A DNA stretch of 25,659 nt from a virus: positions 1-25,659 of IMG/VR virus record IMGVR_UViG_3300017991_000373, one strand, 5' to 3'. A model generated the notes under the pieces. The model did not search any database. It was given only the letters and a program-made list of their open reading frames with translations, and was not told the origin of the DNA. How positions within the stretch are numbered: position 1 is the stretch's first letter; each line of letters starts with the position of its first letter. The translations under genes were made by a program, and so were the position numbers. Shown piece after piece: positions 1-23,727 of the stretch.

Positions 1-165
1 CCACTCAGTCAGTTCGTCCGGCTGACCGTCATCATACATTGTATCATAATACAGATCGGCGTTCCAATCTTCATCCTCGATCTCGACATCCCACTCTTGC
101 CCCGGATCATCAATCCAAGGGTAAAGGCGGCTTTCCTGTTCCATGTCTTCATAATCGTTTGGCAT
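1..165 (-). CDS. Small acidic protein, C-terminus cut by window edge
   Basis: The reading frame runs leftward off the window, so only the first 55 codons are visible. The product begins MPNDYEDMEQESRLYPWIDD and is very rich in Asp, Glu, Trp and Tyr, with no membrane segment. I chose the ATG at 165 because AGGAG (175-179 on the complementary strand) lies about 8 nt upstream; an in-frame ATG at 171 is only 2 nt from that SD. A strong sigma70-type promoter at 191-218 lies just upstream, so this is an independent transcription unit like its neighbours. I do not recognise a family. Strong acidity is common in phage early proteins that mimic DNA or bind host proteins, but that is inference only. 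Confidence 0.7.
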   Translation of the reverse strand, partial: MPNDYEDMEQESRLYPWIDDPGQEWDVEIEDEDWNADLYYDTMYDDGQPDELTEW

Positions 166-190
166 TGTCATGTCTCCTAGTGATGCTCTC

Positions 191-218
191 ATTCTACACT
201 CTATATCGTCAGTGTCAA
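191..218 (-). promoter_or_regulatory. sigma70-type promoter for the acidic gene at 1-165
   Basis: On the minus strand a perfect -35 TTGACA (213-218) and a -10 TAGAAT (191-196, 5 of 6 to consensus) are separated by 16 bp. The expected start lies near 184, giving a leader of about 20 nt that contains the AGGAG. An A-rich stretch lies upstream of the -35. Confidence 0.75.
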
Positions 219-249
219 CACCCAAAATCCAGAAAAAAGAAAAATTTTC

Positions 250-372
250 TTTGGCACAGAACTTGCTATGGTAAATATCATGCTAAACAGAGTACCCCCC
301 TTCCGAGGGGACCCGGCCCGGCTTACCCCCTCCGGAGAGGGGAGCCTGAGGATCAGGTGGGATAAACCCACC
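250..372. repeat. Composite intergenic repeat R1 (sigma54-like motif, dyad, GC hairpins)
   Basis: First of six copies of the left-arm repeat. It starts with an interrupted dyad 250-287 (TTTGGCA ... TGCTAAA arms with inner CTTGC ... GTAAA, partly mutated). The plus strand holds TGGCAC-AGAAC-TTGCT at 252-267. Then come hairpin I (CCCCT-TCCG-AGGGG, 297-310) and hairpin II (CCCCTC-CGGA-GAGGGG, 327-342). This copy alone has two further inverted repeats: CCTGA-GGA-TCAGG (345-357) and GGTGGG-ATAAA-CCCACC (356-372). It sits between the stop of the gene at 396 and the promoter at 191-218. No U-run follows the hairpins on either strand. Confidence 0.75.
252..267 (+). promoter_or_regulatory. sigma54-like -24/-12 motif in R1
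   Basis: TGGCAC-N5-TTGCT matches the RpoN consensus in both boxes, and the GG and GC are correctly spaced. A start would be expected near 278, producing RNA antisense to the 3' end of the gene at 396-749. Whether it is a promoter or another protein's binding site cannot be told from sequence. Confidence 0.4.
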
Positions 373-395
373 CTCACCTCGGCCTTCCCAACCCC

Positions 396-749
396 TCAGG
401 AAGTTACCTTGGGCTTCTTCAGCCTCTTTAGAATCTTACGGGCACTAGTAAGCTTTTCTTGATGGTACTCAATATCTTGCTTGATGCTATCATAAATATT
501 TTCTGGAATCTCATTGGTATGCTGGAAATGATTATAAAAGGTTCCACGACGAATACGAGAAATAGAACGCTCGTATCCACTGGTCAGAGACTTCAGAGTA
601 AAGTTATAAACCTTACCATGATCCCTATATGTCACACCTTCCACAATATAAAAACTATTTTCACCATTTGGAACACCCTTAAACTCATACTTACCAGTTC
701 CCCGCACAATCTTACCAACCAAGTTCTGAGGATTGCAATCGTAGCACAT
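396..749 (-). CDS. Unknown 117-aa basic protein
   Basis: The protein begins MCYDCNPQNLVGKIVRGTGK and ends in a Lys/Arg-rich helix (about residues 85-117, RKILKRLKKPK). The middle looks like a small beta-rich domain with a SISRIRRGTF segment, loosely like the LSRIKSVEKIGRF segment in the protein at 4613-4870. A CxxC pair at residues 2-5 could bind metal or be incidental. The ATG at 749 is preceded by GGAGA at a 7-nt distance. It has its own promoter (801-828). The long leader contains a 7-codon minigene starting exactly where transcription should begin. The basic tail suggests nucleic-acid binding (inference). It is more AT-rich than the genes at 1109-3657. Confidence 0.75.
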   Translation of the reverse strand: MCYDCNPQNLVGKIVRGTGKYEFKGVPNGENSFYIVEGVTYRDHGKVYNFTLKSLTSGYERSISRIRRGTFYNHFQHTNEIPENIYDSIKQDIEYHQEKLTSARKILKRLKKPKVTS

Positions 750-800
750 AATAGATTCTCCAAAGAGGGGTTAGTTACCGTTTCCAATCGTCATGCTCTC

Positions 801-828
801 ATTATATCTAGTATCGGTCAGGTGTCAA
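801..828 (-). promoter_or_regulatory. Consensus sigma70 promoter for the gene at 396-749
   Basis: Perfect TTGACA (823-828) and perfect TATAAT (801-806) with a 16-bp spacer on the minus strand. The spacer contains ACCGAT, a core shared with most other promoters of this array. It is the best match to consensus in the left arm. Confidence 0.85.
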
Positions 829-858
829 GAGTTTCTTCAGAAAAATAAAAATATTTAT

Positions 859-1062
859 TGGAACAGAATTTGCTGGGAGGCTTGGACCCCCACAACAGGG
901 GGTTCCTTCCGGAAGAGGAAAGATTAGGTTGTACACATATACACTATACAAATGTACACCATAGACAGGAAACAGTACATCGGTATAATTAATGTACAAA
1001 TGTTCAGTATACCCCCCATTCCGAGGGGGGTTCGCCCCCGCCTACCCCCTCCGAAGAGGGGG
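859..1062. repeat. Composite intergenic repeat R2, diverged and expanded; gene-free gap 829-1108
   Basis: The 280-base gap 829-1108 has no supportable gene. It begins with a diverged sigma54-like motif TGGAAC-AGAAT-TTGCT (859-874, plus). Next is a hairpin ACCCCC-acaaca-GGGGGT (886-903), then TTCCTT...GAGGAA, which looks like hairpin II with paired substitutions. An AT-rich stretch with several TGTACA words follows. A second hairpin set consists of CCCCCC...GGGGGG (1012-1030) and CCCCCTC-CGAA-GAGGGGG (1045-1062). On the minus strand the last has a canonical C(UUCG)G loop. A GTAC-N4-GTTC box lies at 994-1005. Confidence 0.6.
962..989 (+). promoter_or_regulatory. Possible rightward sigma70-type promoter, antisense
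   Basis: On the plus strand TAGACA (962-967) and TATAAT (984-989) are 16 bp apart. No rightward gene follows. Transcription from about 996 would enter the hairpins at 1012-1062 and then be antisense to the gene at 1109-1273. The region is AT-rich, so a chance match is possible. Confidence 0.3.
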
Positions 1063-1108
1063 TTCCTCCCTCGGTTGCGGGGTGTACAGAGGTATAGCGT
1101 ACAGGCGT

Positions 1109-1273
1109 TCACTCCTCTTCGTCCAGCCGCACCCCTTCGTTGTATTCTGCCAGCAGCATATCCCGATCTGCTGGAGACACGATATTGTGCTCCAAGAAAA
1201 ACTTTTTCATTTCCAGTGATCCACACTGGCGGAATCCCATCTCTCGGGCAATCGTTTTCAGTTCTTCGTTCAT
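1109..1273 (-). CDS. Unknown 54-aa helical protein
   Basis: The product starts MNEELKTIAREMGFRQCGSL and ends in an acidic tail (VRLDEEE). It looks all-helical, with one Cys and no signal or membrane segment. The start follows AAAGGGAAAGA, a purine-rich site at suitable distance. Codon use is ordinary and the frame is open over its whole length between a clear promoter (1298-1326) and a GTAC-N4-GTTC box that overlaps the TGA stop, the same 3' arrangement as in neighbouring genes. I recognise no family. Its being a gene rests mainly on the promoter-SD-frame-3' box arrangement. Confidence 0.65.
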   Translation of the reverse strand: MNEELKTIAREMGFRQCGSLEMKKFFLEHNIVSPADRDMLLAEYNEGVRLDEEE

Positions 1274-1297
1274 TCTTTCCCTTTCATTGATACGCTG

Positions 1298-1326
1298 AGT
1301 CTACAAAACTTTTTTGGGGCTGTCAA
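1298..1326 (-). promoter_or_regulatory. sigma70-type promoter for the gene at 1109-1273
   Basis: TTGACA (1321-1326) and TAGACT (1298-1303) with a 17-bp spacer on the minus strand. The -35 begins 8 nt after the stop of the preceding gene (1335). This stop-to-promoter junction is repeated at 4338-4364, where the -10 half is missing. Confidence 0.7.
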
Positions 1327-1334
1327 CCTGAACA

Positions 1335-1532
1335 CTAGTCCAGTGATTCATAGGCTAGTTCGGCACCGAGTTCATCGCTGAGGGTATAGGTGGTAGCCTG
1401 TTCACTACCACTCCAGAGGGTCCACACCCGACGTTCTAGTTCGATAATGTTGCTTCCGGTGATGACGTCGATGGTTTCACCGTAGCAGTCGTGAACGTGT
1501 GCAGCGTACATGGTTTCAGTTGCGTTGCTCAT
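1335..1532 (-). CDS. GAEL-family small protein, 65 aa
   Basis: The protein is MSNATETMYAAHVHDCYGET followed by IDVITGSNIIELERRVWTLW and a TYTLSDELGAEL tail. It is clearly paralogous to the 68-aa protein at 4356-4562 (shared RVWT-WSGS, TYS/T-SD-LGAEL) and more weakly to 3218-3412. The likely fold is a short alpha/beta domain: strand (YAAHVHD), turn, strand, helix (IIELERRVWTLW), strand. I chose the ATG at 1532, preceded by AGAGA. An in-frame ATG at 1565 lies exactly at the predicted transcription start, so a leaderless form with 11 more residues is possible. Function unknown; probably an early host-interaction gene (inference). Confidence 0.75.
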   Translation of the reverse strand: MSNATETMYAAHVHDCYGETIDVITGSNIIELERRVWTLWSGSEQATTYTLSDELGAELAYESLD

Positions 1533-1571
1533 GAGTGAGTCTCTGTTGGTGGGATTGGTTGCCATGCCTCA

Positions 1572-1600
1572 AGTATATACTTGATATCGGCTGGCGTCAA
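1572..1600 (-). promoter_or_regulatory. sigma70-type promoter for the gene at 1335-1532
   Basis: TTGACG (1595-1600) and TATACT (1572-1577) with a 17-bp spacer containing GCCGAT at spacer positions 4-9. A-tracts on the minus strand (about 1612-1637) lie just upstream, in the position of an UP element. The base 7 nt after the -10 is the A of an in-frame ATG. Confidence 0.75.
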
Positions 1601-1639
1601 GCGACTCGGCCAAGTTTTTTTTCGGAAAAGTTTTTCGTG

Positions 1640-1788
1640 TTTGGCACACGATTTGCTCGTGCAAATCTCATGCCAAAACTTCGGCACAGGATTTGCTAGG
1701 CTACCCCCCTTGCGAGGGGGCCCGGCCCGGCCTGCCCCCTCCGGAGAGGGGTATGTCCACTCCGGCGAGGGGTAGTGTACAGATGTTC
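1640..1788. repeat. Composite intergenic repeat R3, full-length
   Basis: The most regular form of the repeat. A 38-bp dyad (1640-1677) reads TTTGGCA-n5-TTTGC-n4-GCAAA-n5-TGCCAAA with perfect arms. It is followed by a direct copy of the half-site (1682-1697). Hairpin I is CCCCCT-TGCG-AGGGGG (1705-1720). After a GGCCCGGCC-type linker comes hairpin II, CCCCTC-CGGA-GAGGGG (1736-1751), then a weaker hairpin III (1757-1772). The box GTACAGATGTTC (1777-1788) touches the stop of the gene at 1790. Seen from the gene strand, hairpin II has a C(UCCG)G loop. Confidence 0.8.
1642..1697 (+). promoter_or_regulatory. Two tandem sigma54-like -24/-12 motifs in R3
   Basis: TGGCAC-ACGAT-TTGCT (1642-1657) and CGGCAC-AGGAT-TTGCT (1682-1697), 40 bp apart on the plus strand. 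T-tracts lie upstream. A start from the second would fall inside hairpin I. No plus-strand gene follows, so any transcript would be antisense to the gene at 1790-1987. Confidence 0.4.
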
Positions 1789-1789
1789 A

Positions 1790-1987
1790 CTAGTAGGCGG
1801 GAAACCAGCGCTTTCGCAACTCGGTTGCACCTTCAACAATCAGGCACTTGAGTAGAGTTCTGTGAGCATAGCTCACATCGGCATCGAGCCTGTCTTGAGC
1901 ACCCCTCATTTTGGTGGTGATCTCCTGATCAGTCATCGCCTCAAGCGAGGCTTGGAAGTATGGTCCGTTTTTTGCTATGTTGAACAT
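1790..1987 (-). CDS. Unknown 65-aa helical protein
   Basis: The protein begins MFNIAKNGPYFQASLEAMTD and continues with helices containing ITTKMRGAQDRLDADVSYAH and ending ELRKRWFPAY. It has no membrane segment and no recognised family. Its SD is the strongest in the left arm (AGGAGGTGA, 7 nt from the ATG at 1987). The stop of the upstream gene (2000-2002) lies immediately before this SD, so the two are probably one mRNA started at 2213-2241. A perfect palindrome TGAACATATGTTCA (1981-1994) covers the start codon and the SD edge, suggesting occlusion by a repressor or an RNA structure over the start. Confidence 0.75.
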   Translation of the reverse strand: MFNIAKNGPYFQASLEAMTDQEITTKMRGAQDRLDADVSYAHRTLLKCLIVEGATELRKRWFPAY

Positions 1988-1994
1988 ATGTTCA
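1981..1994. promoter_or_regulatory. Perfect palindrome TGAACATATGTTCA over a start codon
   Basis: This 14-bp perfect palindrome matches the GAAC-N4-GTTC architecture of Gram-positive-type LexA (DinR) boxes. It overlaps the start codon of the gene at 1790-1987. Related, less perfect copies occur near other genes of the array (for example 2838-2849, 3208-3219, 3482-3493). Binding by LexA or a phage repressor is inference. Confidence 0.5.
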
Positions 1995-1999
1995 CCTCC

Positions 2000-2173
2000 T
2001 CACAGTTGAACGGGCATGTAGTCGATAACCACCTCACAGTGATCTTTGCAGCACGGGCAGACTTCATATTCTACCTCGGTGTCGTTCAGGAACACGTTGC
2101 AGCAGCCGCTCGTGGCGACCTGAACTTCGGCAAAGGTTTCCTCGACCTGGCGGGTTTCAAAGGCGATGCTCAT
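2000..2173 (-). CDS. Mini zinc-ribbon protein, 57 aa (CPCCxxHC)
   Basis: The product starts MSIAFETRQVEETFAEVQVA and carries GCC (residues 23-25) and CPCCKDHC (39-46). The spacing is shared with the proteins at 2851-2976 and 3496-3657: a first Cys pair, 13-16 residues, then CPxCxxHC. Four Cys plus a His is consistent with a single Zn ribbon; the metal is inference. I use the ATG at 2173 because GGAGAG lies 6 nt upstream. The ATG 33 nt further up lies at the predicted transcription start and would add MATNPTNGESL, a leader shared with the gene at 1335. Probably first gene of a two-gene mRNA with 1790-1987. Confidence 0.75.
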   Translation of the reverse strand: MSIAFETRQVEETFAEVQVATSGCCNVFLNDTEVEYEVCPCCKDHCEVVIDYMPVQL

Positions 2174-2212
2174 GAGTGACTCTCCGTTGGTAGGGTTGGT
2201 TGCCATGCCTCA

Positions 2213-2241
2213 AGTATACTCTCTGTATCGGCACGGGTCAA
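2213..2241 (-). promoter_or_regulatory. sigma70-type promoter for genes 2000-2173 and 1790-1987
   Basis: TTGACC (2236-2241) and TATACT (2213-2218), 17-bp spacer with GCCGAT at spacer positions 4-9. A-tracts on the minus strand lie upstream (about 2255-2278). Confidence 0.75.
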
Positions 2242-2281
2242 CACCTCGATCCAAGTTTTTTTTGGAAAAAAGTTTTTTCTG

Positions 2282-2430
2282 TTTGGCACACCTTTTGCTC
2301 GGGCAAATCCTATGCCAAAACTTCGGCACACCTTTTGCTAGGCCGCCCCCCTTGCGAGGGGGCCCGGCCCGGCCTGCCCCCTCCGGAGAGGGGTACGCCC
2401 ACTCCGGCGAGGGTTGGTGTACAGATGTTC
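2282..2430. repeat. Composite intergenic repeat R4, full-length
   Basis: Same order as R3: dyad TTTGGCA-n5-TTTGC-n4-GCAAA-n5-TGCCAAA (2282-2319), direct half-site (2324-2339), hairpin I (2347-2362), hairpin II CCCCTC-CGGA-GAGGGG (2378-2393), a weaker hairpin III (about 2399-2414) and the box GTACAGATGTTC (2419-2430). A second box GTACAGGCGTTC (2437-2448) overlaps the stop of the gene at 2447. The inner five bases of both half-sites are identical here (ACCTT) but differ from R3 and R5, as if the two half-sites of a copy are homogenised together. Confidence 0.8.
2284..2339 (+). promoter_or_regulatory. Two tandem sigma54-like -24/-12 motifs in R4
   Basis: TGGCAC-ACCTT-TTGCT (2284-2299) and CGGCAC-ACCTT-TTGCT (2324-2339), 40 bp apart as in R3 and R5. 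Orientation is opposite to the genes. Confidence 0.4.
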
Positions 2431-2446
2431 ACTAGTGTACAGGCGT

Positions 2447-2773
2447 TCAGTCTTCCCATAGTGAACGTTCGTTCAGTATGTTCTCTTCAGTGTAGAATGC
2501 CATCACCTTGGCCTTGGCTGCTTCTCGCCTCTCAGCATCGGTCAGCGGCTTGGGTTGCTTGGCCGCAGCCCGTTTTGCAAGCCAGTTGCGATACTGCTCG
2601 TCCTGTTCAGGCGTATAGTCGAGCGGCTCAGGCTCAGGCCCACGGAAGTCTTCGAGAGCGTCGAAGAACTCTTCCCCCTCTGGTAGGGGGATGCTCTCGG
2701 CTTCTCTGTTCAGTTCTGCGATGGCGGCCTTGAACTGGTCAACGGTCAGCAGGTCGTAGTCGATGGGTTTCAT
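2447..2773 (-). CDS. Unknown 108-aa acidic/charged protein
   Basis: The protein begins MKPIDYDLLTVDQFKAAIAE. It continues with an acidic, Pro-rich middle (about residues 28-58, EGEEFF ... GPEPEPLDYTPEQ) and a C-terminal half rich in Ala, Lys and Arg (NWLAKRAAAKQPKPLTDAER) that should form helices. No transmembrane segment or known motif is seen. The start at 2773 has AAGGA 8 nt upstream within a leader (CCCCAAGGAACCT) shared with the gene at 3218. The TGA stop is part of a GAAC-type box, with a second box and the R4 repeat downstream. Function unknown. Confidence 0.75.
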   Translation of the reverse strand: MKPIDYDLLTVDQFKAAIAELNREAESIPLPEGEEFFDALEDFRGPEPEPLDYTPEQDEQYRNWLAKRAAAKQPKPLTDAERREAAKAKVMAFYTEENILNERSLWED

Positions 2774-2803
2774 TCTTAGGTTCCTTGGGGTTGTGATGAT
2801 CTG

Positions 2804-2832
2804 ATTCTACCGAGCTGGCTCGGGGCTGTCAA
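2804..2832 (-). promoter_or_regulatory. sigma70-type promoter for the gene at 2447-2773
   Basis: TTGACA (2827-2832) and TAGAAT (2804-2809), 17-bp spacer containing the inverted repeat CCGAG-CCAG-CTCGG. A GAACAAATGTTT box (2838-2849) lies just upstream of the -35, directly after the stop of the preceding gene. Confidence 0.8.
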
Positions 2833-2850
2833 CAGGTGAACAAATGTTTT

Positions 2851-2976
2851 TTACTCCTCCCACTCTTCCACGATGATTGAGCAGTGTTCGCCACAGTGAG
2901 GGCAGATGCCGATCTCCTCTTGTTCAGGTGAGAGGATCGAGTTGCAGCATTCGCTCGTGGTTTCGGTGAACTTCAT
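2851..2976 (-). CDS. Mini zinc-ribbon protein, 41 aa (CPHCxxHC)
   Basis: A very short gene: MKFTETTSECCNSILSPEQE, then EIGICPHCGEHCSIIVEEWEE. It aligns with the proteins at 2000-2173 and 3496-3657 through S-x-CC-x(n)-E-x-(I/V)CPxCxxHC and is almost only the ribbon, so it gives the minimal form of the family. The second half resembles the C-terminal half of a rubredoxin-like knuckle, but no other domain is present. The start has AAGGG 8 nt upstream and a promoter at 3013-3042. Role unknown; a tiny Zn ribbon could be a host-protein binder or an RNA polymerase modulator (inference). Confidence 0.75.
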   Translation of the reverse strand: MKFTETTSECCNSILSPEQEEIGICPHCGEHCSIIVEEWEE

Positions 2977-3012
2977 TGTCGTTTCCCTTGGGTTGGTTTC
3001 GTTGATAGGGTG

Positions 3013-3042
3013 AGTCTACCATACTGATCGGCAGGCTGTCAA
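3013..3042 (-). promoter_or_regulatory. sigma70-type promoter for the gene at 2851-2976
   Basis: TTGACA (3037-3042) and TAGACT (3013-3018), 18-bp spacer containing GCCGATCAG, shared with the promoter at 3697-3725. An A-tract lies upstream on the minus strand. Confidence 0.7.
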
Positions 3043-3070
3043 GAGGTTCGCCAAGTTTTTTTTGTTTTTT

Positions 3071-3219
3071 TCTGGCACAGCATTTGCTCGTGCAAATATC
3101 ATGCCAAAACTTTGGTACACCATTTGCTATGCTACCCCCCTTGCGAGGGGGTCCGGCGGGGCGTACCCCCTCCGGAGAGGGGTGTACCCACTCCGGCGAA
3201 GGGTAGTGAACAAACGTTT
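3071..3219. repeat. Composite intergenic repeat R5, full-length
   Basis: Dyad TCTGGCA-n5-TTTGC-n4-GCAAA-n5-TGCCAAA (3071-3108), direct half-site (3113-3128), hairpin I CCCCCT-TGCG-AGGGGG (3136-3151), hairpin II CCCCTC-CGGA-GAGGGG (3167-3182), weak hairpin III after it, and GAACAAACGTTT (3208-3219) overlapping the TAA stop of the gene at 3218. The linker between hairpins differs from R3 and R4 (TCCGGCGGGGCGTA), while the stems are kept. Confidence 0.8.
3073..3128 (+). promoter_or_regulatory. Two tandem sigma54-like -24/-12 motifs in R5
   Basis: TGGCAC-AGCAT-TTGCT (3073-3088) and TGGTAC-ACCAT-TTGCT (3113-3128), 40 bp apart, preceded by a T-rich tract. No rightward gene follows. Confidence 0.4.
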
Positions 3220-3412
3220 AGGCCATATCGTACATCACTTCTTCATCGTCGCTGTTGACGATAGAGAAGCGGTGTGCGTCTGCGTTCAACCGGCAGTTGA
3301 TTCGGACAGCCATTTCCAGCGATGCCAGATCCGAGCCGCTCATCCACTTAATGACTTTTCCACAAGCGTCGTAGATGCGAGCGGTGAAACGAGTTGAGGT
3401 TGCGAGGTGCAT
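3218..3412 (-). CDS. Distant GAEL-family small protein, 64 aa
   Basis: The protein begins MHLATSTRFTARIYDACGKV. It shares with the proteins at 1335 and 4356 the pattern (F/Y)-x-A-x-(V/I)-(H/Y)-D-x-x-G-(E/K), a following S/T-G-S/N-(D/N) turn and a helix (LASLEMAVRINCRL), then ends in an acidic strand (SDDEEVMYDMA). The similarity is weaker than between the other two, so membership is probable, not certain. The start at 3412 has AAGGA 9 nt upstream and the CAACCAACCCC leader. The TAA stop is embedded in GAACAAACGTTT. Function unknown. Confidence 0.7.
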   Translation of the reverse strand: MHLATSTRFTARIYDACGKVIKWMSGSDLASLEMAVRINCRLNADAHRFSIVNSDDEEVMYDMA

Positions 3413-3447
3413 TTCAAGGTTCCTTGGGGTTGGTTGATGATGCTCTG

Positions 3448-3476
3448 ATTCTACTAAACTGGCTCGGGGCCGTCAA
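3448..3476 (-). promoter_or_regulatory. sigma70-type promoter for the gene at 3218-3412
   Basis: TTGACG (3471-3476) and TAGAAT (3448-3453), 17-bp spacer GCCCCGAGCC..., nearly identical to the promoter at 2804-2832, including a GAACAAATGTTT box (3482-3493) upstream. The two promoter blocks look like copies. Confidence 0.75.
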
Positions 3477-3495
3477 CAGGTGAACAAATGTTTTT

Positions 3496-3657
3496 TCAGT
3501 TTTTTTCTACCGTCCACTCTTCAAACACTGGCTCGCAGTGTTCGCCACAGCACGGGCAGATCTCGTAATCCAACTGTTCACCACTCATTTCCTCACAGCA
3601 GCAATCGCTGAACCACAGGACGACGCTTTCCAGATTCTCGTGGCATTCAACGCGCAT
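3496..3657 (-). CDS. Mini zinc-ribbon protein, 53 aa (CPCCxxHC)
   Basis: The protein starts MRVECHENLESVVLWFSDCC and carries CCC at residues 19-21 and CPCCGEHC at 34-41, in the same arrangement as 2000-2173 and 2851-2976. Its tail, FEEWTVEKN, matches VEEWEE of the 41-aa paralogue. The ATG at 3657 is 8 nt after GGAG. A further in-frame ATG at 3690 sits at the predicted transcription start and would add an 11-residue leader (MINNLPNGVST) of exactly the same length as in the genes at 1335 and 2000. Zn binding is inferred from the Cys/His pattern; biological role unknown. Confidence 0.75.
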   Translation of the reverse strand: MRVECHENLESVVLWFSDCCCEEMSGEQLDYEICPCCGEHCEPVFEEWTVEKN

Positions 3658-3696
3658 GGTTGACACTCCGTTAGGAAGGTTGTTGATCATGCTTCA

Positions 3697-3725
3697 AGTA
3701 TACCATACTGATCGGCACTTGTCAA
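3697..3725 (-). promoter_or_regulatory. sigma70-type promoter for the gene at 3496-3657
   Basis: TTGACA (3720-3725) and TATACT (3697-3702), 17-bp spacer with GCCGATCAG. A long A-tract on the minus strand (about 3739-3756) lies upstream, a likely UP element. Confidence 0.8.
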
Positions 3726-3757
3726 GCCTCTCGGCCAGTTTTTTTTTCTTTTTTTTC

Positions 3758-3773
3758 TGGCACAGCATTTGCT
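3758..3773 (+). promoter_or_regulatory. Single sigma54-like -24/-12 motif in R6
   Basis: TGGCAC-AGCAT-TTGCT with correct GG/GC spacing on the plus strand; expected start near 3784, within hairpin I. Same uncertainty as for the other copies. Confidence 0.35.
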
Positions 3774-3890
3774 ATGCTACCCCCCTTGCGAGGGGGCCCG
3801 GCGGGGCCTACCCCCTCCGAAGAGGGGTGTTTCCCCCCATATTAGGGGGTTGGTTTAGCATGTACATATGTACACCCCCCTTGCGGGGGG
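3758..3890. repeat. Composite intergenic repeat R6, internally deleted, with extra hairpins
   Basis: The copy has one half-site only, TGGCAC-AGCAT-TTGCT (3758-3773). Its left part matches the first half-site of R5 and its right flank (ATGCTACCCCCC) matches the flank of the second, as expected after recombination between the two direct half-sites. Hairpin I (3781-3796) follows, then hairpin II CCCCTC-CGAA-GAGGGG (3812-3827, C(UUCG)G on the gene strand). CCCCC-n6-GGGGG lies at 3834-3849, a perfect palindrome TGTACATATGTACA at 3861-3874, and hairpin CCCCCC-TTGC-GGGGGG at 3875-3890. Confidence 0.75.
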
Positions 3891-3915
3891 CATACTATAT
3901 GTAACATAGTATATA

Positions 3916-4008
3916 TTAACAGATAGGAGTATAACTATAAAAGATACTAAAAACAGTAACAGCCAGAAACAGCATGATACAAACGATATCCATATCACCA
4001 TCGGTCAT
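3916..4008 (-). CDS. 30-aa single-pass membrane micropeptide
   Basis: The frame reads MTDGDMDIVCIMLFLAVTVF followed by SIFYSYTPIC. A short acidic N-terminus is followed by one hydrophobic segment (about residues 8-24) long enough to span a membrane. GAGGA lies 7 nt before the ATG at 4008, a good SD. Its ATG overlaps the TGA of the upstream 19-codon frame (ATGA), a classic translational-coupling arrangement. Small membrane peptides of phages often act in lysis or superinfection exclusion, but nothing here proves either. Its small size leaves some doubt that it is translated. Confidence 0.5.
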   Translation of the reverse strand: MTDGDMDIVCIMLFLAVTVFSIFYSYTPIC

Positions 4009-4064
4009 AGGTTTGTCCTCAATAGTATAGCCCAACAGAATATAATCCACACTATAGCAATCAT
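4005..4064 (-). CDS. 19-aa hydrophobic micropeptide
   Basis: The frame MIAIVWIIFCWAILLRTNL starts at 4064, 6 nt after GGGGAG (4071-4076), which itself overlaps the TAG stop of the gene at 4076-4321. It ends in ATGA with the next small gene. The peptide is almost wholly hydrophobic with one Arg near its end. It may be a real micropeptide or a translated leader that couples translation to the 30-aa frame. The paired SD, start and overlap arrangement is the only support. Confidence 0.4.
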   Translation of the reverse strand: MIAIVWIIFCWAILLRTNL

Positions 4065-4075
4065 AGTACACTCCC

Positions 4076-4321
4076 CTAGTCTAGTATAACTGGCGGTTTA
4101 TTACCAACATACTCTTCATGTACGCATTCATAGGTGGGGTTCCCATCTTCATCATTCGAGACAAGATATACTTTCACACTATATAGTATATCCCAACCAT
4201 CCCATATTTCCATCGACTCGTCGATTGTAATATCGACACAATCCCCCTTACTACCCTCTTCCAACTCGGCCCCGTGGATATCACAAGCGACGGCGAGAAA
4301 GTATTCATTCATGTATGGCAT
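4076..4321 (-). CDS. Unknown 81-aa acidic protein
   Basis: The protein begins MPYMNEYFLAVACDIHGAEL. It is acidic and beta-rich, with WDGWDILYSVKVYLVSNDED in the second half, and has three Cys with no metal-site spacing. No known family. The ATG at 4321 has GGAG 8 nt upstream. It has no complete promoter of its own: a TTGACA (4342-4347) lies upstream, but the only -10-like word is 14 bp away and overlaps the SD, so it is probably cotranscribed with 4356-4562. It is followed by two coupled micropeptides. Confidence 0.7.
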   Translation of the reverse strand: MPYMNEYFLAVACDIHGAELEEGSKGDCVDITIDESMEIWDGWDILYSVKVYLVSNDEDGNPTYECVHEEYVGNKPPVILD

Positions 4322-4337
4322 AGTATAATCTCCTTTA

Positions 4338-4364
4338 GGGCTGTCAACCTGAACACTAGTCCAG
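4338..4364. repeat. 27-bp junction identical to 1317-1343
   Basis: The string around the stop codon of the gene at 4356 (CTGGACTAG, TGTTCAGG, TTGACAGCCC on the minus strand) is the same as that around the stop of its paralogue at 1335. At 1298-1326 it leads into a complete promoter. Here only the -35 half remains and AAAGGAG follows directly. This indicates block duplication with a breakpoint in the promoter spacer. Confidence 0.65.
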
Positions 4365-4562
4365 CGTGTGGCGTTCTCCGCAGATGAGTTCTGCACCAAG
4401 ATCATCACTGATGGAGTATGTGATACTCTGTTTACTACCACTCCAGACGGTCCACACTCGGAGTTCCAGTTCCGCTACATTGTTTCCGGTGAAGGAATCA
4501 ATCTCCTCACCAAAGACATCATAAACGGTAGCGGTGAACATGTTTTCAGTTACAGTAGTCAT
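4356..4562 (-). CDS. GAEL-family small protein, 68 aa
   Basis: The protein starts MTTVTENMFTATVYDVFGEE and shares with the protein at 1335-1532 the segments RVWTxWSGSxQ, TYS-SD-LGAEL and LD at the C-terminus; the two are clear paralogues. It lacks the 11-residue optional leader. AAGGA lies about 9 nt before the ATG at 4562. A TATACT (4578-4583) is upstream but no good -35 is visible, and an intrinsic terminator (4603-4622) separates it from the next gene, so expression may depend on a weak promoter or read-through. Function unknown. Confidence 0.75.
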   Translation of the reverse strand: MTTVTENMFTATVYDVFGEEIDSFTGNNVAELELRVWTVWSGSKQSITYSISDDLGAELICGERHTLD

Positions 4563-4602
4563 TTTCTTCTTTCCTTTAGTATATAAAAACTCATAGACCC
4601 CT

Positions 4603-4622
4603 AAAAACCCCGTTATGCGGGG
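4603..4622 (-). terminator. Intrinsic terminator of the gene at 4613-4870
   Basis: On the minus strand CCCCG-cataa-CGGGG is followed by TTTTT. The TAA stop lies in the loop. This is the only canonical terminator of the left arm, in contrast to the U-less GC hairpins of the repeats. Confidence 0.85.
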
Positions 4623-4870
4623 TAGGAGAATCTTCCGATCTTTTCAACACTCTTGATACGGGAAAGTTTGATACTCTTGAAACCTTCCGTCTCACTGTAC
4701 AACACTAGCGTGTGAGTGCTATCTTTCTTGGAAGCCTTGAATGATTCAAAGAAGAAGTTATCAAACGTCCGGTCATCGTCTCGCACAACACGGCAGATGA
4801 TACGATCTGTAGTGTTGAAAGCCTCTTTTGCAATGTCCATGATATTGTCGATTTTCTGGAAGCCGTTCAT
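4613..4870 (-). CDS. Unknown 85-aa protein, first leftward gene
   Basis: The protein begins MNGFQKIDNIMDIAKEAFNT. It continues with alternating strands (RIICRVVRDDDRTFDNFFFE, HTLVLYSETEGFKSIKLSRI) and ends IGRFSYPA, giving a likely alpha plus beta-barrel fold of unknown role. I place the start at 4870, where AAGGA precedes the ATG by 8-9 nt in the leader CAACCAACCCCAAGGA shared with other cassette genes. Upstream in-frame ATGs extend through the promoter and are unlikely. It lies nearest the control region and has its own promoter and terminator, so it may be an early regulator (inference). Confidence 0.75.
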   Translation of the reverse strand: MNGFQKIDNIMDIAKEAFNTTDRIICRVVRDDDRTFDNFFFESFKASKKDSTHTLVLYSETEGFKSIKLSRIKSVEKIGRFSYPA

Positions 4871-4913
4871 GGTTTCGATCCTTGGGGTTGGTTGTCGTTT
4901 CCGTTCTGCTTTC

Positions 4914-4941
4914 ATTCTACAGTTTGGATCGACCATTGCAA
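4914..4941 (-). promoter_or_regulatory. sigma70-type promoter for the gene at 4613-4870
   Basis: TTGCAA (4936-4941) and TAGAAT (4914-4919), 16-bp spacer. The -35 is weaker than in the other nine promoters, and TTGCAA is also the core of the repeats at 5073-5159, so a factor binding those repeats could act here too. Confidence 0.6.
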
Positions 4942-5062
4942 GCGAAAACTTTTGAGATTTTCCGTTTTGTGTCGTAAGTCGTTTGTTTGCAACCACTTAC
5001 GTCACTTGGGATTTTCCGATTTTCCCAGTGGACACTTGGGATTTGAGAATCCGCACACGATT
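4942..5062. repeat. Control-region dyads and direct repeats
   Basis: This stretch has no gene. It contains the inverted repeat CGTAAGT/ACTTACG (4973-4979 and 4995-5001). CACTTGGGATTT is repeated directly 30 bp apart (5003-5014, 5033-5044), and GATTTTCC recurs in variants. ACACGATT (5055-5062) is inverted relative to AATCGTGT (5077-5084) inside the first TTGCAA repeat. The density of symmetry suggests a regulatory region or replication origin; no AT-rich unwinding element or initiator gene is visible to decide. Confidence 0.55.
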
Positions 5063-5072
5063 TTCCCCGTTC

Positions 5073-5159
5073 TTGCAATCGTGTTGCAAGTATTCTAGGG
5101 TTCGATTATTGCAATCGTGTTGCAACTCCGCTCGGCCCATTCTTGCAATCGTGTTGCAA
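5073..5159. repeat. Three iteron-like 17-bp repeats
   Basis: TTGCAATCGTGTTGCAA occurs three times, identically, at 5073-5089, 5109-5125 and 5143-5159, with starts 36 and 34 bp apart and all in one orientation. Each has two TTGCAA half-sites around TCGTG. Intervening sequence is not conserved, so the 17-mer itself is selected. Fits iterons of a replication origin or an operator array. Confidence 0.7.
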
Positions 5160-5358
5160 CTCTAAAATATAACATAGTATAACACTAAACTATAACATAC
5201 AATATTGAACTATACTATTTTCATTGTATTATACTATGGGGGTTTTATAATCTCAGAGAAGTATACAAATCGCGATATATAAACGCCCGGTGGTCCATAA
5301 ACAATAGGCACCACCATTATAAATGTAATACCTAAACTATCCTATTGTGCCTCTATCC

Positions 5359-5371
5359 GATAAATGTTATC
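5359..5371. promoter_or_regulatory. Upstream copy of GATAA-n3-TTATC operator
   Basis: GATAA-ATG-TTATC palindrome, followed by AAC as in the second copy. Its centre lies 82 bp from that of the copy overlapping the -10 box, a distance compatible with repression by looping. Confidence 0.5.
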
Positions 5372-5414
5372 AACGGTGTATAGGTTAAAACTAGCAAGAT
5401 ACTCTATCAAATAA

Positions 5415-5443
5415 TTGACATTATTATCTCAAGCTCCTATGAT
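5415..5443 (+). promoter_or_regulatory. sigma70-type promoter of the rightward block
   Basis: Perfect TTGACA (5415-5420) and TATGAT (5438-5443), 17-bp spacer, start expected near 5450, about 29 nt before the first gene at 5479. It implies that the sigma-like and packaging genes are first read by a host-type polymerase. Confidence 0.8.
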
Positions 5444-5478: not shown

Positions 5479-5622
5479 ATGAAAAATATAAACAGCGAAC
5501 TTAAAGTAATAGCTTCTGAGAATCTAGATGTATCAAAAGACCTAGAACAAGAAGATCAAAACTTACAAGAAACATTAAAAGCCTATGAAACAACAAGTTC
5601 AGAATCAAAAACAGATAAATGA
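5479..5622 (+). CDS. Unknown 47-aa acidic protein heading the late block
   Basis: The protein reads MKNINSELKVIASENLDVSK then DLEQEDQNLQETLKAYETTS and a short hydrophilic tail. It is acidic and predicted helical, with no Cys or membrane segment. The start at 5479 has GAGAG 7 nt upstream and lies about 29 nt after the predicted transcription start. It overlaps the next gene (5585) by 38 nt in another frame. Such an overlap suggests the two proteins may be produced together and possibly interact, for example as a small partner of the sigma-like protein; this is speculation. Confidence 0.65.
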   Translation: MKNINSELKVIASENLDVSKDLEQEDQNLQETLKAYETTSSESKTDK

Positions 5623-6196
5623 AGAGGATTTACTAGAAACTATAGATATTATTAGTAAAAAGCTTTCTTACAAATTCAAATTTGGTTATCACGAAATAGA
5701 AGATATGAAACAGCAAATCAGCGTATTTGCAATCGAGGGTCTACAAAATTATGACCATAAAAGACCTCTTGAAAATTTCTTATGGACACACGTTAGAAAT
5801 CGCCTCTTCAATTTTAAACGAGACAACTATCAAAGACCAGACAAACCCTGCAACACTTGTCCCTTTTTTGACAAACACTCAGGAGATTCCTCTAAAGACT
5901 GCTTAAAATACAAAAATAAAAACGACTGCGATCTTTATAATAGTTGGCATTCTAGAAATAACGCCAAGAAAAATTTAATGTACCTAAATACTATAGAAGA
6001 ATTAAAGGACTACTTATCTAATAAAGATAAAAATCAAACCGACAGCGCCGAAGAACAAGAATTATTAGATATTCTAGATGAAAAACTTTATGGAGAAACT
6101 AGAGAGATATACTTAAAGATTAAAATGGGAACTAAAGTATACAAGACCGAATTCAATAAACTTCTTAACAAAATTAAAGAGTTAATCAATGAATAA
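5585..6196 (+). CDS. Sigma-factor-like protein (possible late transcription factor)
   Basis: The 203-aa protein resembles sigma70 region 2 at about residues 37-85: an EIEDMKQQI segment, a GLQNYDHKRPLENFLWTHVR segment, then NRLFNFKRDN. This is the pattern of the core-binding and -10-recognition helices in phage late sigma factors such as T4 gp55. An insertion has four Cys (89, 92, 106, 115; CxxC...C...C) that could bind Zn. The C-terminal helices (about 155-203) could be a reduced region 4. No clear SD precedes the ATG at 5585, so the exact start is uncertain. It overlaps the next gene by 8 nt. A phage sigma fits the RGTGTA motif found at four late gaps. Identification is from pattern only. 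Confidence 0.6.
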   Translation: MKQQVQNQKQINEEDLLETIDIISKKLSYKFKFGYHEIEDMKQQISVFAIEGLQNYDHKRPLENFLWTHVRNRLFNFKRDNYQRPDKPCNTCPFFDKHSGDSSKDCLKYKNKNDCDLYNSWHSRNNAKKNLMYLNTIEELKDYLSNKDKNQTDSAEEQELLDILDEKLYGETREIYLKIKMGTKVYKTEFNKLLNKIKELINE

Positions 6197-7290: not shown

Positions 7291-7735
7291 ATTTACAATT
7301 ATCGTAGATACTAGAGAGCAGCTTCCCTGGGAGTTTGGTGCTCATGCTACAGCTAAAAGAAAGCTTGATACTGGAGACTATAGTATCGAAGGACTAGAAA
7401 ATCTACTTACAATAGAAAGAAAACAAAGTGTTAGTGAAATAGCTAATAATATAACAGAAAAAAGATTTCCGGCATTTTTAGAAAGAATGAGTCAGATACC
7501 GCATAAGTTTATACTATTCGAATTTGATCTGCAAGATGTTTACGATTTTCCTGTTGGGAGCGACATACCTAAAAGTAAGTGGGACAAGTTAAGAGTAAAA
7601 AATAATTACATTCTAAAACAGATAAGTTTATTCCACATAAAATACGGCATTCATACTATATTCTGTGGAGATAGTGACAATGCAGAAAAAATGGCCGTTA
7701 GAATAATGAGAACAGTTTATGACAAATACAGATAA
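7283..7735 (+). CDS. ERCC4/XPF-type nuclease domain protein
   Basis: The 150-aa protein has the ERCC4 nuclease signatures in order: VDTREQ (residues 8-13), TGDYS (30-34), TIERK (43-47), EKRF (59-62), then FELDL-like strands (ILFEFDLQDV). In the classical ERKxxxD motif the last acidic residue is Ser here (ERKQSVS), with Glu immediately after. Activity is therefore likely but may use a shifted acid. Proteins of this type cut branched or flap DNA. Lying between HNH and TerL, and overlapping both (8 and 17 nt), it may resolve branched replication DNA before packaging, as T4 gp49 does (analogy, not homology). Confidence 0.8.
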   Translation: MDEFTIIVDTREQLPWEFGAHATAKRKLDTGDYSIEGLENLLTIERKQSVSEIANNITEKRFPAFLERMSQIPHKFILFEFDLQDVYDFPVGSDIPKSKWDKLRVKNNYILKQISLFHIKYGIHTIFCGDSDNAEKMAVRIMRTVYDKYR

Positions 7736-9746
7736 TTTAATATACGAAAATGCATGGTTAGGTCTAGGAGACTTATCTAAATTAGAACTAGACATTAACC
7801 CACTATTTGGAAGAACAAAAGAAGACATAGAAAATCCAGACTTACACTTATTAAGATTACTTAGGAATCCAAAATATTTTGGTGCGACCGTAAGACTATT
7901 AATGAATATCGAACTACACCCAATACAGATTGCTCTGCTCCAAGAGTTTTGGTATAGACCCTTCCCTATGTTTATTGCTAGTCGTGGTTTTGGTAAGTCA
8001 TTTAGTCTTGCTCTTTATAGCATGTTAAAGTGCATTCTAGTTCCGGGAACAAAGATTGTTATTGTTGGCGCTGCTTTTCGGCAGAGTAAAATTATATTTG
8101 AATATATGGAGAATATGTGGAGAAACAGTCCTATTATAAGGAGTATATTTAGTAGCAATGATGATGGACCAAGAAGAGATGTTGACCGTTGTACTATACG
8201 TCTTGGTGATAGTTGGGCTATTGCTGTTCCTATGGGTGACGGCAGCAAAATTAGAGGTCTCCGTGCGCATATTATCATTGCTGACGAGTTTGCTAGTATT
8301 AGTCCGGATATCTATGAAACGGTTGTAGCTGGTTTCGCTGCTGTTAGTGCGAGTCCTATTCAAAATGTGAAAGAAGAGGCTCGTAAGAAAGCTATGAGAG
8401 AAGCAGGCTTATGGACCGATGAACTAGAAGCTGTTCAAATCAAAAAAGGAAATCAAGCAATAATTAGTGGTACGGCTGATTATAGCTTTAAGCATTTTGC
8501 TCAATATTGGAATAGGTATAAGGCCATTATTAATAGCAGGGGAGATAGGCACAAATTAAAAGAAATATTCGGCAATGATCCTCCTGAGAATTTTAATTGG
8601 AAAGATTATAGTATTATTAGAATTCCATATGAGTTGATTCCTAAGGGATTTATGGATGATAAACAAGTTGCTAGAGCTAAAGCCACGATTCACACGGGAA
8701 TCTATAACATGGAGTACGCCGCTTGTTTCACAGAAGACAGCGACGGTTTCTTTAAGCGTAGTCTTATTGAGAGTTGTGTTTGCAAAGAAGACAAACCCAT
8801 TGTTATTAATGATAAAGAAATTTTATTTGATGTTACAACTAAGGGTAATCCTCAATACAAATATGTATACGGCATCGACCCCGCTTCAGAAAAAGATAAT
8901 TTTAGCATTGTTGTTTTAGAGCTTCATGGAGATCATACCAGAATAGTTTATTGTTGGACTACAAACAGAAGCAATTTTAAAGACAGACAAAAAACAGGAC
9001 TTGTTGGAGAACATGATTTTTATGGTTTCTGTGCCAGAAAAATTCGTAATCTCATGAAAGTATTTCCTTGTGAAAGGATAGGAATGGATGCTCAGGGAGG
9101 AGGTGTCGCAATTGAAGAAGCACTGCACGATCCTTCCAAAGTAGAAGAAGGGGAAAATTTAATTTGGCCAGTTATTGATTATGACAAACCAAAAGAAACT
9201 GATGATCAACAAGGTTTGCATATTCTAGAATTAGTTCAATTTGCTAAAGCGGATTGGACAGCAGCAGCTAATCATGGTTTGAGAAAAGACCTAGAAGATA
9301 GAATATTATTATTTCCAAGATTTGATAATCTAAGTTTAGGATTAGCATTAGATAGAGATAATAAAGATATACTTGACAGTTCAATAGAAAAAGTTTATGA
9401 TAATGAAAGTGAATGTATTTTAGAAATAGAAGACTTAAAGGATGAATTAACAACTATTGTGATGACACAAACTAGTAGCGGTGTTGGAGGTAGAGATAAA
9501 TGGGACACCCCAGACATTAAGCTTCCCAATGGAAAGAAAGGAAAACTCAGAAAAGACCGATATAGCGCTTTAGTTATTGCTAATATGATAGCAAGACAAA
9601 TGAATAGAGAACTAGTACATGCTAGTTTTGATATTATCGGAGGAAACCTGAGAACAATGGGTAAAAAAGGCGGAGAAATGTATAAAGGACCTAGTTGGTT
9701 TACTTCTGCCGCTAATGAAGATTTGTATACTGGTATTTATAGATAA
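7719..9746 (+). CDS. terL: Terminase large subunit
   Basis: The 675-aa packaging motor has both expected domains. ATPase: Walker A SRGFGKS (residues 88-94), Walker B IIIADE (185-190) and a SGTAD coupling motif (250-254). RNase H-like nuclease: YGIDPAS (D387), GMDAQGGG (D457) and KDRYSALVI (D613). These are the three acids that bind metal. The N-terminal 80 residues contain the LHPIQIALLQEFW segment that binds adenine in related proteins. Length and motif order fit large-genome tailed phages of the T4 gp17 type. It overlaps the preceding gene by 17 nt. No intron or frameshift is visible. Confidence 0.95.
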   Translation: MTNTDNLIYENAWLGLGDLSKLELDINPLFGRTKEDIENPDLHLLRLLRNPKYFGATVRLLMNIELHPIQIALLQEFWYRPFPMFIASRGFGKSFSLALYSMLKCILVPGTKIVIVGAAFRQSKIIFEYMENMWRNSPIIRSIFSSNDDGPRRDVDRCTIRLGDSWAIAVPMGDGSKIRGLRAHIIIADEFASISPDIYETVVAGFAAVSASPIQNVKEEARKKAMREAGLWTDELEAVQIKKGNQAIISGTADYSFKHFAQYWNRYKAIINSRGDRHKLKEIFGNDPPENFNWKDYSIIRIPYELIPKGFMDDKQVARAKATIHTGIYNMEYAACFTEDSDGFFKRSLIESCVCKEDKPIVINDKEILFDVTTKGNPQYKYVYGIDPASEKDNFSIVVLELHGDHTRIVYCWTTNRSNFKDRQKTGLVGEHDFYGFCARKIRNLMKVFPCERIGMDAQGGGVAIEEALHDPSKVEEGENLIWPVIDYDKPKETDDQQGLHILELVQFAKADWTAAANHGLRKDLEDRILLFPRFDNLSLGLALDRDNKDILDSSIEKVYDNESECILEIEDLKDELTTIVMTQTSSGVGGRDKWDTPDIKLPNGKKGKLRKDRYSALVIANMIARQMNRELVHASFDIIGGNLRTMGKKGGEMYKGPSWFTSAANEDLYTGIYR

Positions 9747-23648: not shown

Positions 23649-23675
23649 TAAATTAAAAGTTTGTTAAAAGCTTTT

Positions 23676-23685
23676 AGTGTACTAT
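23676..23685 (+). promoter_or_regulatory. Candidate late promoter motif (AGTGTACTAT)
   Basis: Begins 52 nt before the ATG at 23728 in the gap after the first collagen-like gene. It runs into ACTATAATG, so a TATAAT-type -10 is also present, but no -35 is obvious. Confidence 0.35.
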
Positions 23686-23727
23686 AATGTAACTAGGCAA
23701 CAATACTATCAAGGGTAATTAATAGCT

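Follow-up and report, generated by a model that had tools for sequence, protein, structure and literature searches.

We analysed a window of 25,659 nucleotides (IMG/VR virus record IMGVR_UViG_3300017991_000373, positions 1 to 25,659), which is a 25.7-kb piece of the genome of an uncultured phage. Left of position 4941 lies a row of micro-genes, all of them on the minus strand, and from 5479 on the genes are read rightward and include a candidate sigma factor, a D5-like regulator, an HNH nuclease, and a terminase. Our subject is the micro-gene array and, above all, the junctions between its genes. The hairpin units at these junctions open with TTTGGCAC-N5-TTTGCT or a near variant, which matches the -24/-12 element of sigma-54 promoters and had gone unseen in a preliminary description of the array. 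Relatives of the phage were sought by scanning IMG/VR for relatives of its terminase large subunit (7719–9746, plus strand; phrog_2, 6e-23), the marker that defines the family.

The published consensus for sigma-54 is TGGCAC-N5-7-TTGCT (PMC12316311). In the array, TGGCAC and TTGC elements recur with -24/-12 spacing and, judged by sequence, would qualify as sigma-54 promoters. The strict form, TGGCAYRNNNNTTGCW, was found seven times in the array, never in shuffles, and never in the remaining 20 kb of the window, and a relaxed form was found 11 times, compared with 0.08 in shuffles. According to the motif scan, strict elements lie on the plus strand at 252–267 (TGGCACAGAACTTGCT), 1642–1657, 2284–2299, 3073–3088, and 3758–3773, and on the minus strand at 1660–1675 and 3091–3106, where they converge with the elements at 1642 and 3073, respectively. 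Relaxed elements occupy the plus strand at 859–874 (TGGAACAGAATTTGCT), 1682–1697 (CGGCACAGGATTTGCT), 2324–2339, and 3113–3128 (TGGTACACCATTTGCT). Read along the micro-gene strand, the order of a unit is gene, hairpins, one or more backward-facing sigma-54 elements, A-tract, sigma70 promoter, leader, Shine-Dalgarno (SD) sequence, and next gene.

Promoters, hairpins, and genes of the array

The preliminary description had placed ten sigma70-type promoters in the array. A mechanical scan recovered every one of them, all on the minus strand, with 9–12 of 12 matches and spacers of 16–18 bp: 191–218 (TTGACA-16-TAGAAT; 11/12), 801–828 (12/12), 1298–1326 (10/12), 1572–1600 (10/12), 2213–2241 (10/12), 2804–2832, 3013–3042 (10/12), 3448–3476, 3697–3725, and 4914–4941 (9/12). 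On both strands of the array region together there are 24 promoter-like sites, as opposed to 7.7 ± 2.4 in shuffles. One correction to that description is that the genes at 3916–4562 lack an evident promoter belonging to them.

The other shared parts named in that description are also real. Between 1 and 4960 there are seven copies of the ACCCCCCTTGCGAGGGG type of hairpin repeat (0 expected), ten copies of the GAAC box, a palindrome near GTGAACATATGTTCAC scored with up to 4 mismatches (0.17 expected), and six T8 runs on the plus strand, that is, A-tracts on the minus strand (0.45 expected). For the leader (GGTTGGTT on the plus strand, 1 mismatch), the placement is good but the enrichment of the bare word is only modest, with 9 copies compared with 3.6 expected. 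Entire junctions are repeated as well: the 180-bp intergenic unit at 1615–1794 has further copies at 2257–2436 (89%) and 3046–3225 (76%), and the genes that flank these copies are unrelated. Repeat and shared-part scans delimited hairpin regions, given without strand, at 294–365 (C5/G5 stems), 1012–1083, 2345–2417, 3134–3204, and 3779–3890 (three to four C5/G5 stems). A further region at 1703–1775 holds two hairpins joined by a linker of G+C only, and the centre of its first palindrome lies at about +4 of the predicted sigma-54 start. The units have stems, with no T-run behind them on the strand of the micro-genes. The energy z-scores of the hairpins are only modest (-0.9 to -2.2), owing to the high G+C of the sequence.

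Several smaller motifs accompany these parts. GAAC boxes occur at ten places between 980 and 4550 (for example, 1775, 1980, 2417, 2836, and 3480), positioned after hairpins. In the promoters at 2804 and 3448, both of which are without sigma-54 sites, a box abuts the upstream side of the -35, and the palindrome bears a likeness to a LexA-type operator. In minus-strand promoters of the array and its relatives, a CGATA spacer motif six bases ahead of GTAG/-10 ranks with the most strongly enriched gapped words and is possibly an operator within early promoters. Between the divergent arms of the window, at 4960–5160, a CGTAAGTCGTT...ACTTACG palindrome and three copies of TTGCAATCGTGTTGCAA may form an origin or control region.

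The micro-genes themselves belong to no significant family in Pfam and PHROGs searches, and an Rfam search of 1–5400 returned nothing over gathering scores. All are read on the minus strand. At the left end, a truncated acidic gene (1–171; SD AGGAG and ATG) lies behind the 191–218 promoter. It is followed by genes of 117 amino acids (396–749), with a homologue that is 81% identical in the relative L008, and 54 amino acids (1109–1273), for which no homologue was found in the nearest relatives. A gene of 65 amino acids (1790–1987; 68% identical in L007, L008, and L010) is the second one behind the 2213 promoter, and a gene of 108 amino acids (2447–2773) changes its place relative to 1790–2173 among relatives. 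Farther right are a gene with an uncertain start (3916–4071; 77–79% identical in L002 and L007) and genes of 81 amino acids (4076–4321; 78–79%) and 85 amino acids (4613–4870; 84–93%), both compared with L002, L007, L008, and L009.

The remaining genes fall into two sets of paralogues that are not adjacent to one another, as had been proposed. The first comprises 1335–1532 (65 amino acids from its likely start), 3218–3412 (64 amino acids), and 4356–4562; identity is 59% between the first and third (1e-24) and 36% across 36 amino acids between the first and second (4e-4). The second set is rich in cysteine and comprises the zinc-ribbon-like 2000–2173 (57 amino acids from its likely start; 75–90% identical in L007, L008, and L010), 2851–2976 (41 amino acids), and 3496–3657 (53 amino acids from its likely start). 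Here the 3496 gene is 33% identical to the 2000 gene (2e-11) and 53% identical to the 2851 gene (1e-10). For the genes at 1335, 2000, and 3496 the starts given earlier are probably to be corrected to 1532, 2173, and 3657; we prefer these shorter starts because the longer frames cross the leader.

Conservation of the sigma-54 elements

IMG/VR contained 475 pattern-matched relatives of the window's terminase, and the scan yielded 80 loci that are 75–97% identical. Among loci selected by terminase only, strict sites are present in 20 of the 25 non-redundant ones with at least 5 kb upstream of the gene. One stretch upstream of the terminase holds almost all sites in records of up to 224 kb, and tandem copies reach 11–12 per record. 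The relatives supplied 139 non-redundant sites, which gave the logo TTTGGCAYRnnATTTGCT. Positions independent of the search are conserved in it too, namely the TT before the element and the AT before TTGC. As a guard against circularity, every gapped word pair was enumerated in 27 arrays picked by terminase alone. The sigma-54 element was recovered as top gapped words in 24 of the 27 arrays, compared with 2 in simulated arrays, and the top-ranked words were mostly pieces of the element, with pieces of hairpins or sigma70 promoters making up the rest.

Scans of IMG/VR from the motif side led back to the same phages. Tandem elements were found in 36 stretches, the reversed pattern in none, and the composite sigma70/sigma54 unit in 66 stretches. 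Among 58 further records tested that these two scans had found through the motif only, the same terminase family is present in 50; sigma-54 arrays are therefore a near-specific mark of this family. Several of the remaining eight are short (4.7–11 kb) or, like G068, stop at the array.

The elements are also arranged in a regular manner. In the terminase-only loci, 67 sites point toward the terminase, that is, against the micro-genes, and 23 point away (p = 4e-6). For 25 of the 45 non-redundant units, an element lies 29–33 bp from the -35 of the sigma70 promoter on the opposite strand. A good palindrome is present in 63 of 116 units, compared with 3 shuffled ones; its centre is mostly at 0 to +2 of the predicted start, which falls in the centre or an arm. 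These features bear on the main rival to a promoter role, according to which the elements would be binding sites and not productive promoters, acting as a multi-copy decoy that titrates the host holoenzyme or as roadblocks that insulate cassettes. Starts within palindromes, the tandem copies, and the convergent overlapping pairs at 1642/1660 and 3073/3091 speak for such a role, as does the scarcity of reading frames behind sites that face the micro-genes: SD and ATG follow within 70 nucleotides at only 2 of 141 of these, compared with 11 of 45 sites that read with the micro-genes. Yet a pure decoy would be expected to have neither an orientation bias nor a fixed distance to the -35, and in some relatives the element stands immediately before SD and ATG. 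On balance, we consider a decoy or roadblock rather unlikely.

Among the sequence evidence, the sites that face with the micro-genes just ahead of SD and ATG speak most strongly for the element acting as a promoter. Several of them share the context TATATAnGGTATAAGAAAGAGAG, and two of the genes behind them belong to the same Cys-rich family as genes of the window. We also considered strict concerted evolution of the units within a genome and rejected it. Similarity within genomes exceeds label permutation (0/2000), yet for only 20 of 104 units does the most similar unit lie in their own genome.

Another possibility is that the element is an asymmetric site, like a stoperator, at which a phage repressor blocks the micro-genes, and that its match to sigma-54 is coincidental. 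The stoperators of cluster A mycobacteriophages are likewise asymmetric, intergenic, repeated, and oriented with respect to genes (PMC9283540), in keeping with the 67:23 bias found here. A candidate repressor exists, too: in 42 of 56 relatives, a 70-amino-acid predicted DNA-binding protein with a D5-like helix-turn-helix (HTH) and an RGRPKK AT-hook is encoded between the array and the rightward operon, divergent from the latter (in L033, for example, some 2.3–2.5 kb upstream of the terminase). However, this protein was not seen in the window's own fragment, the orientation of the sites is mixed, and both half-sites and the gap between them are those of the sigma-54 consensus, down to the Y and R that follow TGGCA. 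Unlike stoperators, the sites also keep a preferred distance to promoters, and in several relatives they lie directly before SD and ATG, which fits a promoter and not a stop site. Repressor sites of this kind are thus improbable. The small protein may bind A-tracts. The idea that it is a miniature RpoN DNA-binding domain was discarded, since PF04552 matched only 1 of 13 members, with E = 0.07.

Gain and loss of cassettes

The preliminary description had proposed that recombination between shared parts shuffles whole cassettes. Comparison with relatives supports gain and loss at shared parts, together with some moves, but not strong shuffling. One case is 4335–4576, a clean one-gene insertion that carries the 4356–4562 gene and is flanked by CCTTTAG repeats lying at two Shine-Dalgarno sites; in L002, L007, L008, and L009 it is missing and its flanks are contiguous. 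In L002, which has 97% terminase identity, the 3496 gene is lost and the homologue of the 3218 gene bears the 3496-type promoter. The switch point lies within the shared leader GAAGGTTGGTTG; the partners of the crossover are the leader side at 3437–3476, with the 3448–3476 promoter, and the promoter at 3697–3725. For the 396–749 cassette, the alignment with L008 extends between the leader at 173 and the sigma-54 site at 877. Moves are exemplified by the 2447-type gene, which comes after the 1790–2000 pair in the window and in L008, whereas L007 and L010 have it ahead of that pair.

Gene order is mostly kept, contrary to what the shuffling proposal would predict. Across relatives, 1991 gene pairs of the array were concordant and 82 discordant (82/2073), or 96% of order kept, compared with 7042 concordant and 5 discordant pairs in the plus-strand operon; adjacency was 64% and 89%, respectively. 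Gene content overlaps little among relatives (Jaccard 0.16). With order conserved and content so variable, gain and loss outweigh shuffling. Gain and loss at shared parts are well supported, and free shuffling is not supported.

The array had also been likened to phage morons, for which it is a poorer fit than for promoter early–stem-loop (PeSL) cassettes. As outlined for T4-type phages (Arbiol 2010 and Comeau 2014, via PMC4503421), these are compact intergenic units of an early sigma70 promoter and a stem-loop, set between small, mostly nonessential genes, and recombination from unit to unit adds or removes genes. The units of the array likewise contain a strong sigma70-like early promoter, and close relatives gain and lose genes with breakpoints in the units. 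They differ in their outward-facing sigma-54 elements and A-tract spacer, in hairpins that lack a terminator T-run on the micro-gene strand, and in the use of leader and SD as additional exchange points. The phage family is unrelated as well, its nearest named terminases being those of Microcystis phage MaeS and Bacillus phages (24–26% identity). Since it is not T4-type, we say that the array works like PeSL and do not class it as a member. Integrons offer a looser parallel: they too are arrays of small exchangeable genes, each followed by inverted repeats, but here every cassette has its own promoter and the breakpoints are homologous leader and SD sequences.

One could hold that nothing more is present than a plain PeSL-type shuffling array, in which the match to sigma-54 has no meaning for transcription and simply travels with the repeat. 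The sharing of promoters and hairpins and the gain and loss of genes at these parts agree with this view. Against it, the palindromes vary by lineage (C5/G5, CTGCCATTTTGGCAG, or CGTAAGT types) and the sigma-54 element and its spacing remain constant, a pattern that hitch-hiking does not explain. We regard this alternative as extremely improbable.

Some characteristics of the phage lie outside the array. No DNA-level match to cultured phages was found for the window, and the portal and capsid candidates were without match. Relatives have been binned in metagenome-assembled genomes named Alphaproteobacteria and Flavobacteriales, which is weak evidence on the host. The array is richer in G+C (about 53% at 1000–3500) than most late genes (31–36%), and its G+C exceeds that of the late operon in 32 of 35 loci. 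Structural genes at 21069–25315 contain very long collagen-like G-X-Q repeats (GVQG/GLQG/GTQG). In the relative L136, the Walker A motif of the terminase (1662–4718, minus strand) is split by an in-frame, intein-like insert with a LAGLIDADG homing endonuclease, and the split terminase matches in records G019, G027, and G041 resemble this case.

A possible sigma70/sigma-54 junction

The sequence of the elements, their conservation, orientation, and spacing, their restriction to one family, and gain and loss with breakpoints in shared parts are direct observations. For their function we favor the following reading, to which we give an even chance: the array consists of exchangeable early micro-gene cassettes whose junctions are back-to-back sigma70/sigma54 promoter pairs with a hairpin, and its output is tied to the state of host sigma-54. 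A cassette would comprise a sigma70 promoter, a leader, an SD, one or two tiny genes, and 3' hairpins. A junction would then be a composite unit, with the sigma70 promoter for the next micro-gene on one side of the A-tract and one or more opposite-facing sigma-54 elements on the other, and the hairpin at the 3' end of the preceding micro-gene would contain the predicted sigma-54 start.

Under this reading, host RNA polymerase with sigma70 would express the micro-genes early in infection, and host sigma-54 holoenzyme would occupy the opposite side of the unit. If a host activator is active, a sigma-54 transcript would run antisense across the preceding micro-gene. Without activation, the closed complex could block or rival the sigma70 polymerase at the shared A-tract. 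Holoenzymes that flank a 32-bp A-tract would roughly abut, which makes competition or mutual influence plausible. In the relatives where the element directly precedes the SD and start of a micro-gene, it would drive that gene. As a tentative extension, short of being probable, activated sigma-54 polymerase may, across this whole family of large environmental phages, make antisense RNA to one micro-gene and vie with sigma70 for the following one, and infection would in this way read the nitrogen or stress state of the host.

Several points weigh against the favored reading. The presence of sigma-54 and a matching activator in the host is an assumption, and no upstream activating sequence (UAS) was identified. 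Sites that face the terminase have no reading frame behind them, their antisense RNAs being predicted only, and a start within a palindrome would be unusual for a productive promoter. Spacings to the -35 other than the preferred one occur, clustered near 42 and 53, and helical phasing is not significant (p ~0.1). Finally, strict sites are missing from 5 of the 25 loci whose upstream stretch is long enough, among them one in a 153-kb record that is devoid of them throughout; the system is thus not essential to the family.

The position of the sites raises one more alternative, that they are late promoters, which would launch long transcripts across the array and on into the packaging genes. Most sites are upstream of the terminase and point toward it, the last of them about 2.7 kb ahead of it in some relatives. 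However, the rightward operon possesses a separate sigma70-type promoter (5415–5443, 11/12), and its first long gene (5585–6196, plus strand) encodes a candidate phage sigma factor, with a Sigma70_r2 domain (PF04542) in 9 of 9 homologues (best 4.2e-5) and a match to phrog_1740, RNA polymerase sigma factor, in 8 of 9. In addition, several relatives have a hairpin and T-run after the last sigma-54 site, which would end incoming rightward transcripts. With a promoter of its own and a probable phage sigma factor, the operon makes a late-promoter role very improbable. Homologues of the candidate sigma factor are present in 54 loci, and the Sigma70_r2 match is followed by a Cys-rich insert.

Compared with bacterial sigma-54 (RpoN) promoters, the elements have the same -24/-12 organization, the right spacing, and the right base preferences. 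They differ in forming phage arrays of up to 11–12 copies, mostly opposed to the nearby genes and with predicted starts in palindromes, and in belonging to phages for which no sigma-54 or activator of their own was found in the records searched. Our searches of the open-access literature on sigma-54 and phage promoters turned up no account of phages that employ host sigma-54 promoters in arrays. In its cassette principle the array agrees with PeSL, and for the sigma-54 half of the unit we found no counterpart.

The sigma70/sigma-54 junction is a simple DNA signature by which such phages can be found, and it allows a direct test of whether the array responds to rpoN. If the sites work, junctions that regulate micro-genes would double as the points at which these genes are swapped, and this family of phages would sense or hijack the sigma-54 control of its hosts through its early genes.

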